Notes under the pieces: model-generated
Told to the model about the DNA's origin: nothing
The model's input: the letters and a program-made list of their open reading frames with translations, nothing else
Databases searched by the model: none
IMG/VR virus record: IMGVR_UViG_3300044621_001857
Span: 1 to 40,119 of that record
Strand: one strand, 5' to 3'
DNA length: 40,119 bases
Origin: a virus
Position numbers and translations under genes: made by a program
Part shown: piece by piece, positions 7,430 to 38,557 of the stretch
How positions within the stretch are numbered: the stretch's first letter is position 1
How the letters are laid out: each line of letters begins with the position of its first letter

Positions 7430-8233
7430 ATGACCTATTTGTCCGCTAAAAAAATCTATCCCGGCAACTGGGCTGAACCCCTGAATGGCTGGTATAAGAA
7501 CATTGATGCCGATTATGCCGGCACTGATGACGGCTCTAAGGGTGGCCCCACTTCGGTGCTGGCCCTCCCTGGCTACCGCTACTTCCAGCAACGTGGTTAT
7601 GTAGCAGTTACTGCTACCTCTGGCTCTGGTCCTGTTTCTTCGGCAAGCGTGATCGTTCCTTCCCCCTACCGGAATGACGACACTCGTACCGACATCACCG
7701 GCATGGTGATCTCTGGTAACAGCACCCTGCCTGCTTACGTGTACCGTACTGCTATCTCCGTGGCCTCTGGCTGGGGTGATGGCCGCGTGGCTTCTGGTGT
7801 GTACGCTGCCACCGGTAACGTGATCTCGTTCGGTCGCGTAAGCTCCAGCAACCCCACCGCCGCTTCTGGCGTGGGTGAGGGCGTGATTCAGGCCAACCTG
7901 ACTTCTACCGTCTCTGGCACCCAGGCTGGCGAAATCTACTTCGCTGGTGGCACCGCAGGTTTTGGTACCAACCCCTTCCTGACCATCACCGGCGCTACTG
8001 GCGTTGCTCCTGGCACTGTTAACTACTCTGTTACTTCTGCTACCACCCTTCGGGTGTTTGCAAAGGAAACCGCCAACAGCACCACCACTTCCGGTGGCTT
8101 CTACATCTCCAGTGGTGATGCAAGCGCAGGCCGCACCGGTTACCTGGTCGTGGAAGTGTGCTACATCCAGCCCGATGAAGCTCCTGGTTACGAAGACATC
8201 GACGGCTACCTGACCGGTCGCACTGTCAGCTGA
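7430..8233 (+). CDS. Probable abundant head protein (decoration/cement candidate)
   Basis: 267 residues, rich in Ser, Thr, Gly and Val with a beta-strand pattern throughout (YVAVTATSGSGPVSSASVIV, GTVNYSVTSATTLRVFAKE), no helices of note and no enzyme motif. It is the only other gene in the head block that shares the MCP's strong preference for C-ending codons, which points to very high expression. The position right behind MCP, 34 bases away, is where head decoration or cement proteins usually lie. A candidate promoter box AAACTATA lies at 7412-7419, 11 bases upstream. The decoration role is inference from codon use and order. Confidence 0.7.
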   Translation: MTYLSAKKIYPGNWAEPLNGWYKNIDADYAGTDDGSKGGPTSVLALPGYRYFQQRGYVAVTATSGSGPVSSASVIVPSPYRNDDTRTDITGMVISGNSTLPAYVYRTAISVASGWGDGRVASGVYAATGNVISFGRVSSSNPTAASGVGEGVIQANLTSTVSGTQAGEIYFAGGTAGFGTNPFLTITGATGVAPGTVNYSVTSATTLRVFAKETANSTTTSGGFYISSGDASAGRTGYLVVEVCYIQPDEAPGYEDIDGYLTGRTVS

Positions 8234-31971: not shown

Positions 31972-33066
31972 TTAGGCATCCTCGTGGTAATCGGGGACAT
32001 CATTCACTTCGCAAGGATGCGCAATAGAAGGTTTGTAGTCACGTTCAATTAACTCCTGGGTTTTTTTCAGGCGTATCGCACTGCTTGCCGCCATTAGTTT
32101 TTGTGCGTCAAAGTGTGTATCAAAAGGTTCCAGGCGTTTTGGTGGCAGCCCGCGATTCCAACGAGAGAACATATGAAGGGGGTTGCCGCACCAAGGGTTA
32201 CCACACAATCTGGTCACTGACAAGAAGCCGACATCTCCCCATGCACACTGGTAGAGGAGCTTATGGAAGTTAACGTTCTCAGAAGTTTGGTCACTGTAAA
32301 ACGCCCTGTAGGAAGGGAAGCACACACGGCGGGGACTGACTTTCCCTGGGGCATTGATCTGCCAACACTCGTCTGGATGGCCGATCTCAACTTTCTCCCA
32401 CAACCGAAAGTACTTGTACTTGTACCGTTCGTTTAAAAAGTTAATGTCAAAGCCACATACGTTGGATTGAATTTTAATTGCACAGTGGTAGCACCAGTGC
32501 TCTTGACTGTTTCTGATGGTATGCCCATGGGCACATGGATACCCCTTGTAGTAACCAAGGGTTTTTAACTCTTCTTCTGATAGGGAGTCAATGTCCTTGA
32601 CGTAAGTAAAGAGTCCAGGCGCAGGTGGCTCTACGGAAGCGCCTATCAACTTGGGATCAATCATGGGTTCTAACTCGACAATAGTAGTGTTTTTTGATTT
32701 CAGTAGGCATGACTTGAGTCCCAGGCGGTTGTCCTTGTCCTCATTGGCTGTCGTATGGACAACGGCATGCTCATCAGGGCATAGACCGGTACGTAGATAG
32801 TAGACGATCCGGTGAGCCTGGTACTCCTGCCCGTCAATACAGACAATGTAGTGACCGGTTTTCTTGTGGATGCGCCCCGCTTGATCCCCCTGGTTGTAGC
32901 CAGCTTTGTCAACGAGCCATTCAAGGCCACTGGGGTACCGGACGGAAAGCTTGTACTGGCTTTCCAGGTGCCAGAGCGGAGGCATTTCCTTGTAGTTGCG
33001 CGGCATGGGTGGGATGCGTACCCCAGAATCATACACGAGCGACGGAGGGGATTCAGTTACATGCAA
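31972..33066 (-). CDS. Protein with two HNH-like modules and a zinc knuckle
   Basis: 364 residues if the TTG at 33066 is used; GTG 33036 and ATG 33006 are alternatives and may be the real starts, since the inverted repeat begins at 33066. Residues 45-120 resemble the AP2/HNH homing endonuclease core (AGRIHKKTGHYIVCIDGQ, EYQAHRIVYYLRTGLCPDE, then ANEDKDNR in place of DHxNGxxxDNR). Residues 175-196 form a zinc-ribbon-like C178/H180...C192/C195. Residues 225-300 are a second HNH_3-like module (PDECWQINAPGK, VNFHKLLYQCAWG, LCGNPWCGNPLHM). Key His of the first module is shifted, so one half may be DNA binding only. Confidence 0.7.
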   Translation of the reverse strand: MHVTESPPSLVYDSGVRIPPMPRNYKEMPPLWHLESQYKLSVRYPSGLEWLVDKAGYNQGDQAGRIHKKTGHYIVCIDGQEYQAHRIVYYLRTGLCPDEHAVVHTTANEDKDNRLGLKSCLLKSKNTTIVELEPMIDPKLIGASVEPPAPGLFTYVKDIDSLSEEELKTLGYYKGYPCAHGHTIRNSQEHWCYHCAIKIQSNVCGFDINFLNERYKYKYFRLWEKVEIGHPDECWQINAPGKVSPRRVCFPSYRAFYSDQTSENVNFHKLLYQCAWGDVGFLSVTRLCGNPWCGNPLHMFSRWNRGLPPKRLEPFDTHFDAQKLMAASSAIRLKKTQELIERDYKPSIAHPCEVNDVPDYHEDA

Positions 33067-33251
33067 AAATTCAGGATAAGGTTAAATTCTTTTTGATATA
33101 GGGATTAATGACACTTTTGCCATCTTATACGGAATTTTAACCAGCGCTTCACCCCTGTCTCACATGTGTTTCACTTTGCGAAATTCCGTATAAAAAGCTA
33201 AAAGTGTCATTTTTCCCATATCTAAAACAAAACGAGCTTATCCTGAATTTT
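33066..33251. repeat. Long modular inverted repeat in a 280-base non-coding gap (candidate origin or dual promoter)
   Basis: Left arm 33066-33137, right arm 33181-33251, centre 43 bases. Four matched boxes run in the same order and spacing in both arms: AAAATTCAGGATAAG (33066-33080 vs 33237-33251), GATATaGGG/GATATGGG (33095-33103 vs 33215-33222), AATGACACTTTT (33107-33118 vs 33200-33211) and TTATACGGAATTT (33125-33137 vs 33181-33193). The 14-, 3- and 6-base spacers differ in sequence but are identical in length in the two arms. A palindrome CACATGTG lies at 33161-33168 near the centre. Conserved boxes with conserved spacing point to protein binding, not to a simple hairpin. Confidence 0.8.
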
Positions 33252-33279
33252 GCCGACACTACTAATTGGTCGCGCTCTG

Positions 33280-33294
33280 GTCTCAACATGAGAC
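33280..33294. repeat. Short perfect inverted repeat
   Basis: GTCTCA (33280-33285), spacer ACA, TGAGAC (33289-33294). It lies between the long inverted repeat and the terminator of the glycosyltransferase gene. Could be an operator half-pair or part of the same control region. Confidence 0.4.
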
Positions 33295-33311
33295 TATGTT
33301 GCCAGTAAAAA

Positions 33312-33331
33312 GCCCCCGCCGAAGCGAGGGC
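33312..33331 (-). terminator. Terminator of the glycosyltransferase gene
   Basis: GCCCCCGC (33312-33319), loop CGAA, GCGAGGGC (33324-33331), one mismatch; on the minus strand it is followed by TTTTT (complement of 33307-33311). It ends transcription from the gene whose stop is at 33347. A second stem (GCCTGA 33330-33335 with TCAGGC 33347-33352) overlaps the stop codon. Confidence 0.8.
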
Positions 33332-33346
33332 CTGATTCCACCCTGG

Positions 33347-34630
33347 TCAGGCTACTGCGCCTACCAGTCGCTTCTTGCGTTTTTCTTTTTTCTTCTCTTT
33401 CTTGCTTACCGGTTCTTCCACCTGAGTCGAGTGTGCATCCCCATAGGAACCCTCTAGCACCTCCTGGAACAGCCCTGCAAACTGAGGTGCGATGTTGTCC
33501 CAGTCGTAGCAGGGGGAGGTGGCACGCTCGTAGCAGAGGCGTGCAGTCTCATCAAGTTTCTCACGGTTCTCATAGAGATCCGTCAAGATTTCGGCGAGGT
33601 GATCAGCTGATGGGCAAGGCATTTCCCGTGCGTAGTTCGTATCCACATCCACGTGGTCACAACGGATCAGGCGCCCAGCACCCTCAAAGATCTCCTTGGT
33701 ACTGGTATGGTCAGGCACCACCTGAGCAACCCGGCAGCCCGCATGCTCATGGTTGACCAGCCCGTGGCCCTCACCCTTGCAAGTATTCACACCTACGTCA
33801 GCTGCGTTATAGATCGCATTCAGGAAATCCACCTCTACATTTGGAGGCCCTTCTGTTTGCGCCGTAAGGATGATGCGTCCATTGGGATCCAACCCTTCCC
33901 GACCCATTGCCCTGGCAAACAGTGGCATCAAGTCCCAACCTTGATCTTTGAGTCCCATGTGTAGATACAGTTGCGTATCCGGTTTGTCCTTCGCGAACTT
34001 GGCAAAAGCCTCAACCGTAATGTCGATACGTTTGCGGAACTGGTTGCGGTTGCCGTTGAACACCACAAAGATGTCATCCGACAGACCAAGCCGCTTACGG
34101 GCCTCACTCTTATCCATGGGATAGAACTGACCCTTGGTGATACCGTGAGGAATCACAGCGATAGGCTTCTGGTAACCAGCAGCCACCACTTCTTTTGCAC
34201 CAAATTCCGTATAGCAGATGGACGCATCCCACTCATTCATGGTGTCAAGGATGCACCCAGTCCAGCCGTAGCTGTCCATGGGGTAGTAACCAACAAACTT
34301 GAAGGCACCAGTCTTATGGATGTCCTGGATCTGACGATACAACTCATTCAGAATCCACAAATCATTCATGATGAAGATAAGATCTGGCTTCTCTTTCTCC
34401 ACAATCTCTCGAATGCGTTGCTCACCAAACGGTGCGGTCTGATGCCGAGTGGACGAGGGATAAATTAGGTACTTATCACAGAGTGGATGTGGGTCACCCC
34501 ACCAGTTATTACCGAGCACTACAACTTCATAGTCATCACAAAGACGCTCAAGCACATTTTCTGTGACACGAGCAAACCCGGTCTTGGCGATGATGTCACC
34601 TGACCAGAGCAGTTTAGGTTTCTTGTTCAT
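33347..34630 (-). CDS. GT4-family glycosyltransferase
   Basis: 427 residues with two Rossmann halves (GT-B fold). N-terminal domain contains LLWSGDIIAKTGFARVTENV; the hinge is near IPHGITKGQF (160-169); the sugar-nucleotide half has NRNQFRKRIDI and the EX7E signature in KGEGHGLVNHEHAG (E287, E295), typical of retaining GT4 enzymes. The tail is highly basic (KKEKKKEKRKKR). Donor and acceptor are unknown: it could modify phage DNA bases, a virion protein or a host surface glycan. A single-gene unit with its own terminator. Inside it, AAATTCCGTATA (34202-34213) repeats a box of the inverted repeat nearby. Confidence 0.88.
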   Translation of the reverse strand: MNKKPKLLWSGDIIAKTGFARVTENVLERLCDDYEVVVLGNNWWGDPHPLCDKYLIYPSSTRHQTAPFGEQRIREIVEKEKPDLIFIMNDLWILNELYRQIQDIHKTGAFKFVGYYPMDSYGWTGCILDTMNEWDASICYTEFGAKEVVAAGYQKPIAVIPHGITKGQFYPMDKSEARKRLGLSDDIFVVFNGNRNQFRKRIDITVEAFAKFAKDKPDTQLYLHMGLKDQGWDLMPLFARAMGREGLDPNGRIILTAQTEGPPNVEVDFLNAIYNAADVGVNTCKGEGHGLVNHEHAGCRVAQVVPDHTSTKEIFEGAGRLIRCDHVDVDTNYAREMPCPSADHLAEILTDLYENREKLDETARLCYERATSPCYDWDNIAPQFAGLFQEVLEGSYGDAHSTQVEEPVSKKEKKKEKRKKRLVGAVA

Positions 34631-34697: not shown

Positions 34698-35591
34698 ATG
34701 AATAGGCAAGAGCTTGCTGGCAAGTTTATGCAGCTCCAGCAGAATGAGTTATTTAACGAGTTTCAAGAAGGCTTGATGACCGGTATTCCAGCCGGCTTGA
34801 GCTTAATCGGCACTGATACATCCTTGCCTCAGGTGGCTCTTCAGACCGTTGGTGCTGTTGCCGGCGGCTTTGGCATTGGCATGTTAGGTAAATCAATAGG
34901 AGCACGCATTGGTAAACGTCTACATAAAGACGCGTTAACAAACCAAGGAGGACTTGCAGCAAATTTTGGTAGAGTTGCAGGCCAGAAAACACTTGCCCAA
35001 GGCGCTGCAGAAACAATGCGCCATATGAAAGGTCAAATGAAGCAAGAGATAAAACAAGAAACCTCTTCACAACTACTTAATGAAGCCCTGCAAAGCCCTC
35101 AAGCATTTGCATCTAAATATGGGGTTGATCCAGAAACGTTTAAAAAATATCATTCAGCTGTAGGCCAAGCAGGACAAGCGCGTGCTGTTCTGGAAACAGT
35201 TGAAAACTTATCACCCGAACAACGCAAGCAGATGGGTGCAGCAACTCAAACTTTAATGGATAAAGGTTTTAGTCAAGTTGAAAACCTGATTAACACCCAA
35301 GCTTCTGAATCTATTGATGCCAATATTACAAAAATGGCCTTAGAGTATAAGGGAAAAACAATACCTGGTACTGATACGGATGTGGGACAAATGTTTCAAT
35401 CACTGTTAAAGCAACCAAATGCAGTCACGGGAGAGCATGTCGGACGTGCGGTGGGTCGTTTTATTGGCGATGAAGTAGGCGTCGTTACCGGCATCGGTCT
35501 TACCGGTGCACTTGCGGGTTCCCTTGGAATGAAGACAGAGAAAGACAAAAAGATTGAAGAGTTACAACAACAAGTTGGGCGGCGTTACTGA
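34698..35591 (+). CDS. Helical protein with glycine-zipper segments, possible ejection protein
   Basis: 297 residues. Helical N-terminus (GKFMQLQQNELFNEFQEGLM), a Gly/Ala hydrophobic region at 45-70 (QTVGAVAGGFGIGMLGKSIG), long Gln/Ala-rich helices, and a second glycine-zipper near 265-285 (VVTGIGLTGALAGSLG). Such amphipathic, membrane-active designs are common in DNA ejection proteins. It stands alone on the plus strand between minus-strand units, and its 3' end overlaps speD by 30 bases tail to tail. Virion role is inferred. Confidence 0.6.
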   Translation: MNRQELAGKFMQLQQNELFNEFQEGLMTGIPAGLSLIGTDTSLPQVALQTVGAVAGGFGIGMLGKSIGARIGKRLHKDALTNQGGLAANFGRVAGQKTLAQGAAETMRHMKGQMKQEIKQETSSQLLNEALQSPQAFASKYGVDPETFKKYHSAVGQAGQARAVLETVENLSPEQRKQMGAATQTLMDKGFSQVENLINTQASESIDANITKMALEYKGKTIPGTDTDVGQMFQSLLKQPNAVTGEHVGRAVGRFIGDEVGVVTGIGLTGALAGSLGMKTEKDKKIEELQQQVGRRY

Positions 35592-35924
35592 TCGAGTCAA
35601 CTCTTTTTCTTCCGTTGCTTTGGCTTTAAGTTTTGTTTTTAAAAACTCAGCAGCTCGATGTGTTTGCGTTGTATCCCCACACGTATACAAATCGATTGCT
35701 GCATAACCAATCTCTGGCCAGGTGTGCACACTTGCATGGGACTCTGCCAGTAAGGCAAGTAGTGTCACACCTTGCGGTTTAAATTTTTCACCAATGATCC
35801 GTAGGATATTGGCTTTCGCTAGAACTAAAGAAGCCTCAAGCAACCGTTGAAGCTCCTCATAGTTATCTAACAACTCTGGGTCACACCCATAGAGATCTAA
35901 AATTAAATGCCGACCGTCACTCAA
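35562..35924 (-). CDS. speD: S-adenosylmethionine decarboxylase proenzyme
   Basis: Makes decarboxylated SAM, the aminopropyl donor for spermidine. The 120-residue bacterial/archaeal class 1b form: LLALLAESHASVHTWPE with the self-cleavage site Glu61-Ser62, where Ser62 becomes the pyruvoyl cofactor, processing His67, and YAAIDLYTCG with Cys82 as proton donor. The positions match the known short enzymes (Ser63, His68, Cys83 in Thermotoga numbering, from memory). Its ATG overlaps the primase stop (ATGA), so it is translated with the replication protein. Phage speD is known in marine cyanophages as an auxiliary metabolic gene. No speE or other polyamine gene is seen. Confidence 0.92.
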   Translation of the reverse strand: MSDGRHLILDLYGCDPELLDNYEELQRLLEASLVLAKANILRIIGEKFKPQGVTLLALLAESHASVHTWPEIGYAAIDLYTCGDTTQTHRAAEFLKTKLKAKATEEKELTRSVTPPNLLL

Positions 35925-38557
35925 AGCTCTGCCTCTGCAGATTCCATTGTCGCATCAGTCTTCTTATCTATGACATCGCCATAGTGAATACGCCATTCTT
36001 TTTTGTTCATGCCCACTTCAATAATGGAGGGGAACTTTGCGTATTTCTGGTCTGATGCCCTGCAGGCAACGTTGACTACACGCATGCCACGTGGATTCTT
36101 GAACTTGTAGACGTTCAAGCCAAGCTGGTGGATACACACGTCCATCAACAAGGTCTCAAAACGGCTACGCCCAAGGATATTACTGTTAGATGCACGGGCA
36201 AATTCACAGTAACTGGCATATAACCACGTATCCCAAGACACGTACACGTTTGAAGAACCAGCAGAAGAAGGTTTAGCCAGACCAATAGGAGTAGACACAC
36301 CTGGGTCAAACACCACACAATGATCAAGCCAATCCATGATCTGGTTGGATTTAAGGATCTGTTCACGGTGATGCTTAGCAAAGAAGCCAACTTTCTCATT
36401 GGTCTCCATCAGATACTCACGCATCTCAGCCTCACTCATATCTAAGACCCAGTTGACAAGCCCTGGGAGCAAGGACGCAAATTCACCAAAGGGACGACCA
36501 CGGTCATCCATATCAATTAACGTGCGTTGCTCAGCAGAGTTACCAGTGAACGGCTTGTCAAAAGGAATAGTGAGGCGACGACGTGCAAGACCTGAGGTTG
36601 GATCAGTTGTTTGGATGGGTTCGTTAGCCGTGATCATGACAAGGCCATTGAACTTAAACGGCTTCTGGGACCCCGTCTGAAACTTATGTTCGTTACGGAT
36701 TAAGTCCCGACCGGTAATAGCTTTTAACACAGAGACCGAACCGCCATAGCGCTCCACATCATTGAAGAGCAATAATTTTTTCTTATATAAGTTGGCGGTT
36801 TCAAATCGGTTTTTCTCAAGGTGCTCAAGGGATGAGATCATTGCGTTGTCATCACCAACCAAAGCATGTGCCAGGTTCGAGTACGTTGATTTACCAGATT
36901 TACCAGGTCCAACAATTTCAACAAACTTCTGAATATCAGAGTGACTTAAAAGGACGGCACGCAACCAAGCCCTCAACACTTGGACGCGACCCCAGTTATC
37001 ATCCTGTGTGTTCTTCAGCCACTTGACAATAGGCTCACAAGTTGCCCCTGGGTCATAGTCATAGGGCAGTTGTTGCGTGATGTGCATGCTCCTGCTGAAA
37101 GGCAGCAGTTCACGCGTATTGACGTTAAGGATACCGTTGGTAAACAGTAGGTGGTCGTTGCCTTCATACCAGTCATCAAAGATGAGACTGATGCGTAGCT
37201 GCTCGTACACATCGTTGACCAGCGTCATGCTGTAGCCATTCTTAAGGAAACCCTCCTTGATCAGGTCGAGCTGAGACTTGATCTCACTCTTCATCTCAGT
37301 CTCAGACAGACGAGACCACAAGCCCTTTGACCTGTGGTGCTCATAGATGAAGAATGCGTTGTGGGCTTGACTAAACTGCAGCCTTCCTCTATAAACCTGC
37401 AGGAGTACGTCAGCAACTGCGTCAGATGAAGGTCCTCTTGTTTGTTGTTCTTTTCCTTGCCCCCGTCCCTGCCTTTTCAAAGACTTACGATTCTCCTGAG
37501 GAGGCTGCACAGTATCTTCAGGAGATAACTCAGTCTCAATGGTCGGCATCAGTGCAGCCTCAATTTCTTCCAGTTGTTTGGACATGTGCTCAAGTGTCGC
37601 ATCATCAACACTCATCGCACGATGGTTCTGGGACATCTCCCAGCCATGCTCACGGGCAATGTGAATAAGAGAACCTAGACCACGGCCACCGCCTTTACTA
37701 AAGGACAACCAACGGCGGTGGCATTCGCCATCTCGATACTTATCCGATTGCTTGGACCACTCATCCCATTGATCCAGCAACGATTCATCCAGTGAGTGAA
37801 GCGATTGTCCAATCGTGATCCAGATGTCGTAATCGTCACAGGCCTCTGGCGGCAGTGCCCACATTGCTTCTGTTGCCAGCTGCATGTCCCGCTCTAGCGA
37901 GATCTCTGTGTTCACAGCAAATGTAGGACCAATTACCCTGGAGATTTCCTTGGCAGGAACCCCTTGCTTTACGTTCTTGTTGATGATGGCATTCAGCAGC
38001 CAGTCCGGAAACTCAGGCAGTTCCTGGACCCACTCAAATCCAGATTCTTCACCCGTGAAGTAACCATCGGTCTCAGGGTGCAAACCCATTAGCACACCTT
38101 GGTGCCGCTTCCAAAGAATCTCAAGTTTTTCTTTGTTCTCTTCCCCGTGCCAGGTGTACTTATTTCTAACGAAATGCTTGTGCTTTTCCCGTTTCAAGCG
38201 GTAAAGCTTGCGTTCACGCCCGATTTTGCCACTGAAAACGGTCAGCGTTTGGGGCAATGCTTCATTAAGAGGCAAGCCAGAGAGTTGTTCGATAAGTGGA
38301 TAGATGCTCGGTCCATCAACATCAACCCAGACCAGGCCATAAGGATAGTTGTAGACAGGCCCGCCAAGTAAACCGACAGCTTTGCACTTGCCGGTAAGGA
38401 TTTCCTCCTCAATTTCCTGTGTACTAAATGGCTTGTTTTGCCAACCTGATACATATGGATCCTTGTTTGCGCCAAGCGGCGTGAGCGGCCAATCCTTGGG
38501 GATGTAGTCAAGACGTACCTCGCCGGGCTTCAGGGTCAATTGTTGTTTGCTTGTCAT
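35921..38557 (-). CDS. Primase-helicase of the D5/PriCT type
   Basis: Large replication protein, 878 residues. The N-terminal region (about 15-180) has the prim-pol type acidic pair in GLVWVDVDG (D79, D81); residues 225-310 form a PriCT_2-like module (WALPPEACDDYDIWITIGQS, RRWLSFSKGGGRGLGSL); a basic linker follows (residues 350-375); residues 450-700 are a D5-type SF3 helicase: Walker A GPGKSGKST (550-558), Walker B LLLFNDVE (595-602), and motif C FNGLVMITAN (636-645) with arginine finger candidates at GLARRR. It likely primes and unwinds phage DNA. It overlaps both neighbours by ATGA. The catalytic histidine of the primase is not clearly located. Confidence 0.92.
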   Translation of the reverse strand: MTSKQQLTLKPGEVRLDYIPKDWPLTPLGANKDPYVSGWQNKPFSTQEIEEEILTGKCKAVGLLGGPVYNYPYGLVWVDVDGPSIYPLIEQLSGLPLNEALPQTLTVFSGKIGRERKLYRLKREKHKHFVRNKYTWHGEENKEKLEILWKRHQGVLMGLHPETDGYFTGEESGFEWVQELPEFPDWLLNAIINKNVKQGVPAKEISRVIGPTFAVNTEISLERDMQLATEAMWALPPEACDDYDIWITIGQSLHSLDESLLDQWDEWSKQSDKYRDGECHRRWLSFSKGGGRGLGSLIHIAREHGWEMSQNHRAMSVDDATLEHMSKQLEEIEAALMPTIETELSPEDTVQPPQENRKSLKRQGRGQGKEQQTRGPSSDAVADVLLQVYRGRLQFSQAHNAFFIYEHHRSKGLWSRLSETEMKSEIKSQLDLIKEGFLKNGYSMTLVNDVYEQLRISLIFDDWYEGNDHLLFTNGILNVNTRELLPFSRSMHITQQLPYDYDPGATCEPIVKWLKNTQDDNWGRVQVLRAWLRAVLLSHSDIQKFVEIVGPGKSGKSTYSNLAHALVGDDNAMISSLEHLEKNRFETANLYKKKLLLFNDVERYGGSVSVLKAITGRDLIRNEHKFQTGSQKPFKFNGLVMITANEPIQTTDPTSGLARRRLTIPFDKPFTGNSAEQRTLIDMDDRGRPFGEFASLLPGLVNWVLDMSEAEMREYLMETNEKVGFFAKHHREQILKSNQIMDWLDHCVVFDPGVSTPIGLAKPSSAGSSNVYVSWDTWLYASYCEFARASNSNILGRSRFETLLMDVCIHQLGLNVYKFKNPRGMRVVNVACRASDQKYAKFPSIIEVGMNKKEWRIHYGDVIDKKTDATMESAEAEL

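Follow-up and report, generated by a model that had tools for sequence, protein, structure and literature searches.

Organization of the two-armed element

A viral DNA stretch of 40,119 nucleotides (IMG/VR record IMGVR_UViG_3300044621_001857; hereafter the window), which covers part of the genome of a freshwater cyanophage of the S-EIV1-like group, carries at positions 33066-33251 a pair of mirror-image arms, and this raises the question of what such an element is for. A preliminary description of the sequence had offered three options, namely an origin of replication at which an initiator binds each arm, a pair of back-to-back promoters, and a control site for a phage regulator. The first of these is the best supported, by the place of the element, its matched boxes, a domain of the phage primase and the elements of other phages, and we consider it probable that the element is the phage origin of DNA replication.

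The element spans ~186 bp and consists of two inverted arms of ~72 bp around a centre of ~41 bp, with the same four boxes assigned to each arm by direct reading and repeat search (Table 1). The region 33001-33346 has an inverted-repeat score of 148, as against a mean of 30 (sd 6.5) and a maximum of 62 over 1000 dinucleotide shuffles of the same region, which confirms the two arms with four matched boxes in the same order. The spacers had been said to keep their lengths exactly. This holds, as they measure 14, 2 (3 by the box limits of the preliminary description) and 6 bases in both arms, and the sole length difference between the arms is one base that box 2 lacks in the right arm; the 14-base spacers themselves are identical at only 7 of 14 positions. 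A single 13-mer, AAATTCMKKATAA, recurs in variant form as boxes 1 and 4, so that the element has four copies of it, ~57 bp apart and alternating in orientation, and a pattern search of the window found no other exact match to this pattern. The counterpart of the left box 2 in relatives is the TATATAAAAGATA region.

The motif TRAGAC is enriched 8-fold in the element regions of 17 genomes; its 11-bp periodicity was seen by eye only, as exact pairs are too few for statistics, and the enrichment alone is robust. Several relatives have similar palindromes at the place corresponding to 33279-33293 of the window. A 12-mer, AAATTCCGTATA, at 34202 within the glycosyltransferase gene was set aside as a coincidence, being made up of codons of a conserved stretch.

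Table 1. Positions of the element, its parts and the neighbouring genes in the window.
Feature	Position	Strand	Basis or remark
HNH-type endonuclease gene, directly beyond the element	31972-33006	-	likely start ATG at 33006
Left arm of the proposed origin, boxes 1-4	33066-33138	+	sequence reading, repeat search, shuffle score
Box 1 left, AAAATTCAGGATAAG	33066-33080	+	13-mer at 33067-33079; putative initiator box
Box 2 left, GATATAGGGA	33095-33104	+	putative melting box
Box 3 left, AATGACACTTTT	33107-33118	+	sequence reading; best-conserved box among relatives, by eye
Box 4 left, TTATACGGAATTT (minus strand AAATTCCGTATAA)	33125-33137	-	second copy of the 13-mer
Centre between the arms	33139-33179	.	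minus strand: GTGAAACACAT GTGAGACAGGG GTGAAG, three direct repeats, 11 bp apart
Right arm of the proposed origin, boxes 4-1 inverted	33180-33251	-	sequence reading, repeat search, shuffle score
Box 4 right, AAATTCCGTATAA	33181-33193	+	repeat search
Box 3 right, AAAAGTGTCATT	33200-33211	-	sequence reading
Box 2 right, TCCCATATC	33214-33222	-	sequence reading
Box 1 right, CTTATCCTGAATTTT	33237-33251	-	repeat search
Palindrome GTCTCAACATGAGAC / GTCTCANNNTGAGAC	33279-33293	.	between element and terminator
Terminator-like hairpin of the glycosyltransferase transcript	33312-33325	-	terminator search
Glycosyltransferase gene, conserved neighbour	33347-34630	-	gene annotation and relatives
S-adenosylmethionine (AdoMet) decarboxylase gene	35562-35924	-	domain search
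Primase gene, proposed initiator	35921-38557	-	Prim-Pol, PriCT_2, D5_N and DUF5906 (profile search); predicted C-terminal winged helix

Genomic setting and conservation among cyanophages

Read along the minus strand, the order is primase, AdoMet decarboxylase, glycosyltransferase, terminator-like hairpin, element and HNH-type endonuclease, with 2.7 kb between the primase gene and the element. The two-armed element occurs 3' of the primase, AdoMet decarboxylase and glycosyltransferase genes in all 17 S-EIV1-like genomes examined (at ~7832-7968 of KJ410740 in S-EIV1). In 14 of them the element, flanked by the glycosyltransferase and endonuclease genes, has the highest score of all inverted repeats in the genome, 92-200, with runner-up repeats at 58-80, except in G015, where the runner-up is a second copy scoring 148; the arms in G009, G012 and G016 are recognisable but diverged. 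Among 79 cyanophage loci, 62 score at least 80 and 17 less than 80, and the element outscores every other scan window of its own locus in 63. At one locus (L005:7373-7685) there are three arms, one arm having been duplicated in direct orientation, and the loci L068-L081 have an additional gene after the glycosyltransferase gene, cupin-like by eye, and elements in which box 3 has diverged between the two arms. The glycosyltransferase is also present in S-CBS4, but within the structural module. In the window, the glycosyltransferase and AdoMet decarboxylase genes are separated by an ORF of 297 codons that runs the other way (34698-35591, plus strand) and has no Pfam match; S-EIV1 shows just a short gap at that place.

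The sequences of the boxes differ among relatives yet match between the arms of a genome, the median similarity being 0.73 for arm against arm in one genome and 0.30 for the same arm across genomes. Outer boxes of relatives include TTCCGACTATACC, CCGACTTTG, GCAGACTTTGGG and ACACAGAATAGG, the second box is TATA-like and the third is near ATGACACTTT or ATTACATTTTG. Spacers are of equal length in both arms in 88 of 114 cases despite their differing sequence, a count that is somewhat favoured by the gap penalty of the arm alignment. The preliminary description had proposed such a comparison with relatives, in which the two-armed layout recurs and the box sequences change. The scan of whole genomes for single arms that it had also proposed was run and found none elsewhere in any of the 17 genomes. 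An exact pattern search of viral contigs with boxes 3 and 4 returned four contigs with one arm-like match each, which we ascribe to chance, as no comparable two-armed element was found there.

A complete second copy of the element is present in one of the 17 genomes (G015), the other 16 having a single copy. Two copies in one genome, terminal inverted repeats and a short length are features of a MITE-like mobile element. The place of the element is, however, fixed in almost all relatives, nearly every genome has one copy, and the arms have diverged between relatives past recognition; such an origin of the element is extremely improbable.

The endonuclease of the window is a PHROG 1872 domain fused to an HNH_3-like domain, and in each of the 79 relatives whose sequence extends far enough a homologue comes immediately after the element, i.e., the gene is fixed beside the proposed origin throughout. 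Two loci (L002 and L004) have an additional HNH gene before the element, which is still ahead of the next HNH gene. The S-EIV1 endonuclease (KJ410740 7027-7725) apparently starts upstream of the annotated start of AHV82135, and a small opposite-strand CDS is annotated in the remainder of that region. The constant adjacency of this gene, taken with a symmetric, mostly single-copy element with repeats in its centre, would suit another cis site, serving partition, dimer resolution, packaging or recombination. We judge this highly unlikely: the terminase gene is far off (411-1937 in the window; ~30 kb from the element in S-EIV1, the shorter way round), and it is the primase and not the endonuclease that accompanies the element constantly in unrelated phages.

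Protein contacts, base pairing and promoters

The preliminary description had attributed the pattern to selection on protein or polymerase contacts in each arm and not on pairing between the arms. A function resting on arm pairing, in a structured RNA or in a cruciform, would accord with arms that are complementary and covary, and with the description of the pRN1 origin as a stem-loop whose integrity matters (PMC4234260). The spacers, however, are unpaired at equal length, mismatches between the two arms are not biased towards G-U on either strand (184 vs 200), which goes against RNA pairing, and there is no Rfam match in the window. Since the diverged spacers keep equal lengths, mismatches do not lean to G-U and no Rfam family is matched, contacts on duplex DNA are favoured over an RNA hairpin, and a function that depends on pairing is very unlikely. 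The original claim is nevertheless to be softened in one respect, as a DNA cruciform could form part of origin function.

Back-to-back promoters would here amount to a symmetric outward promoter/operator pair, with a phage regulator on each arm that mainly controls the adjoining endonuclease gene. The arm end lies 10-60 bp upstream of this conserved gene, and the outer boxes read outward contain -10-like hexamers in many relatives (TATAGT, TATTCT and TATCCT in the right arm), but the other arm, which is equally conserved, would fire into the end of a convergent gene. A promoter search found no -35/-10 consensus promoter in the outer boxes, the only promoter-like sites (33134-33163, minus strand) using other hexamers. 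A repeated promoter or operator is also disfavoured because the arms are not found singly elsewhere, no single arm standing ahead of any other gene in the 17 genomes, and phages without this endonuclease show the same layout behind the primase. Thus, promoter activity as the main function is unlikely, though the arm beside the endonuclease gene may act as a promoter alongside an origin, an added role that is possible for the right arm.

The primase and its predicted origin-binding domain

The primase of the window belongs to PHROG 1156 and matches the P4-family primase C-terminus model TIGR01613 at 1.1e-26, under that model's cut-off. An AlphaFold2 model of its C-terminal part, of good confidence only from about residue 100 onward, finds its best match in the origin-binding domain of phage P4 (1ka8), with a Foldseek probability of 1.00 but an E-value of just 0.0099. 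Structural alignment gives a Z of 9.2 and 3.2 Å over 94 residues, and residues 96-202 of the predicted model form the matching part. The next-best folds are the winged helices of RFX, ASFV PrimPol and ORC. On the best match, the C-terminus of the primase is predicted to be a P4-type winged-helix origin-binding domain. The P4 alpha protein is likewise multifunctional, combining primase and helicase with a winged-helix origin-binding domain at its C-terminus, whereas it has a bacterial, Toprim-type primase domain and the P4 ori uses repeats (iterons) and not a large mirror-image element (PMC4234260).

Elements of other phages and known origins

The primases of BPP-1-type phages fall in the same PHROG 1156 and have the same Pfam domains as the primase of the window, and a mirror-image element lies 3' of the primase in BPP-1, Acinetobacter phage 4316 and Burkholderia phage BcepC6B. 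Each arm of these elements has tandem boxes (TGCCTCGTT, GTGACGTTA and GGGACGATA, respectively), the spacers are unpaired and of equal or near-equal lengths, and the inner boxes are A/T-rich. Among viral contigs with relatives of the BPP-1 primase, 65 of 69 loci have an inverted repeat scoring at least 70 within ~850 bp downstream of the primase gene, and in 61 it is the best of the locus, though many of the 69 are mutually close relatives and so do not count as independent cases. In these repeats each arm typically holds ~9-bp boxes in tandem, and the spacers are unpaired. The repeat is only weak in Pseudomonas phage MR14, whose primase is 25% identical to that of BPP-1, and is missing from UFOVP1367, whose primase is remotely related (34% identity over part). 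The cyanophage and BPP-1-type elements showed no sequence similarity to each other, and may be either of common descent or convergent. The BPP-1 'endonuclease' bbp27, considered as the equivalent of the HNH gene in cyanophages, is an HTH protein of 78 aa, and we therefore claim no endonuclease in common.

The statement of the preliminary description that no named element has this layout was not quite right. The origin of pRN1 has been mapped to a ~100-nt stem-loop 3' of a Prim-Pol/SF3/winged-helix gene (Berkner et al. 2014, PMC4234260), and a similarly placed stem-loop origin has been proposed for BIP-1 and BPP-1-type phages (PMC4234260). The cyanophage locus shares with these a replication protein with Prim-Pol, PriCT_2 and SF3 (D5) helicase domains and a C-terminal winged helix (in the cyanophage a fold match of a predicted model), an inverted repeat beyond a terminator and 3' of the replication gene or operon, and a layout that is retained while the sequence is little conserved. 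It differs in the size and make-up of the element, with its long centre and matched boxes that alternate with unpaired, equal-length spacers, and in having the AdoMet decarboxylase and glycosyltransferase genes between primase and element, which places the repeat two genes past the primase. Origin function has been tested for pRN1, whereas the cyanophage element is a candidate origin identified by sequence. The best explanation of the cyanophage element is that it is a variant of this known but little-studied kind of origin.

Symmetric initiator sites beside A/T-rich DNA, on which two SF3 rings assemble as double hexamers, are a feature of the SV40 and papillomavirus origins, whose initiators lack a fused Prim-Pol domain. 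These origins have no sequence relation to the cyanophage element.

Proposed function in replication

Several observations favour origin function, viz., the constant place 3' of the primase operon with lineage-specific boxes matched between the arms, the lack of single-arm copies elsewhere, the P4-type origin-binding domain predicted for the primase, and the recurrence of this layout downstream of the primase gene in phages that infect other hosts. We infer that the origin-binding domain of the primase would bind the lineage-specific outer boxes of both arms, and that mirror symmetry and fixed spacing would place two helicase rings head to head. The rings may then melt the A/T-rich second boxes and the centre, with the Prim-Pol domain priming on the exposed strands and two forks departing in opposite directions. 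GC skew drops at the element, from a mean of +0.11 to -0.03, in the direction opposite to that of a simple bidirectional origin; since the step falls exactly at the end of the primase operon, where transcription explains it equally, it is unusable as origin evidence.

The Prim-Pol/SF3/winged-helix primases of phrog_1156 could more generally be paired with two-armed mirror origins of fixed geometry, whose lineage-specific boxes co-evolve with the origin-binding domain to give each lineage a private initiator/origin pair. We put this forward tentatively, as a possibility that falls somewhat short of being probable. No described origin for S-EIV1-like cyanophages was found in the open literature searched, and the element provides a precise candidate for this widespread freshwater lineage. 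A suggestion made in 2014 on one Bordetella phage group is now linked to about 150 loci. The element also offers a rule for locating origins in such phages, which is to take the highest-scoring inverted repeat downstream of the primase operon, and a system in which the specificities of initiator and origin may shift rapidly and in concert. The second complete two-armed element of G015 (L144:3151-3600) lies 34 kb from the first, has nearly the same arms, and is possibly a second origin.
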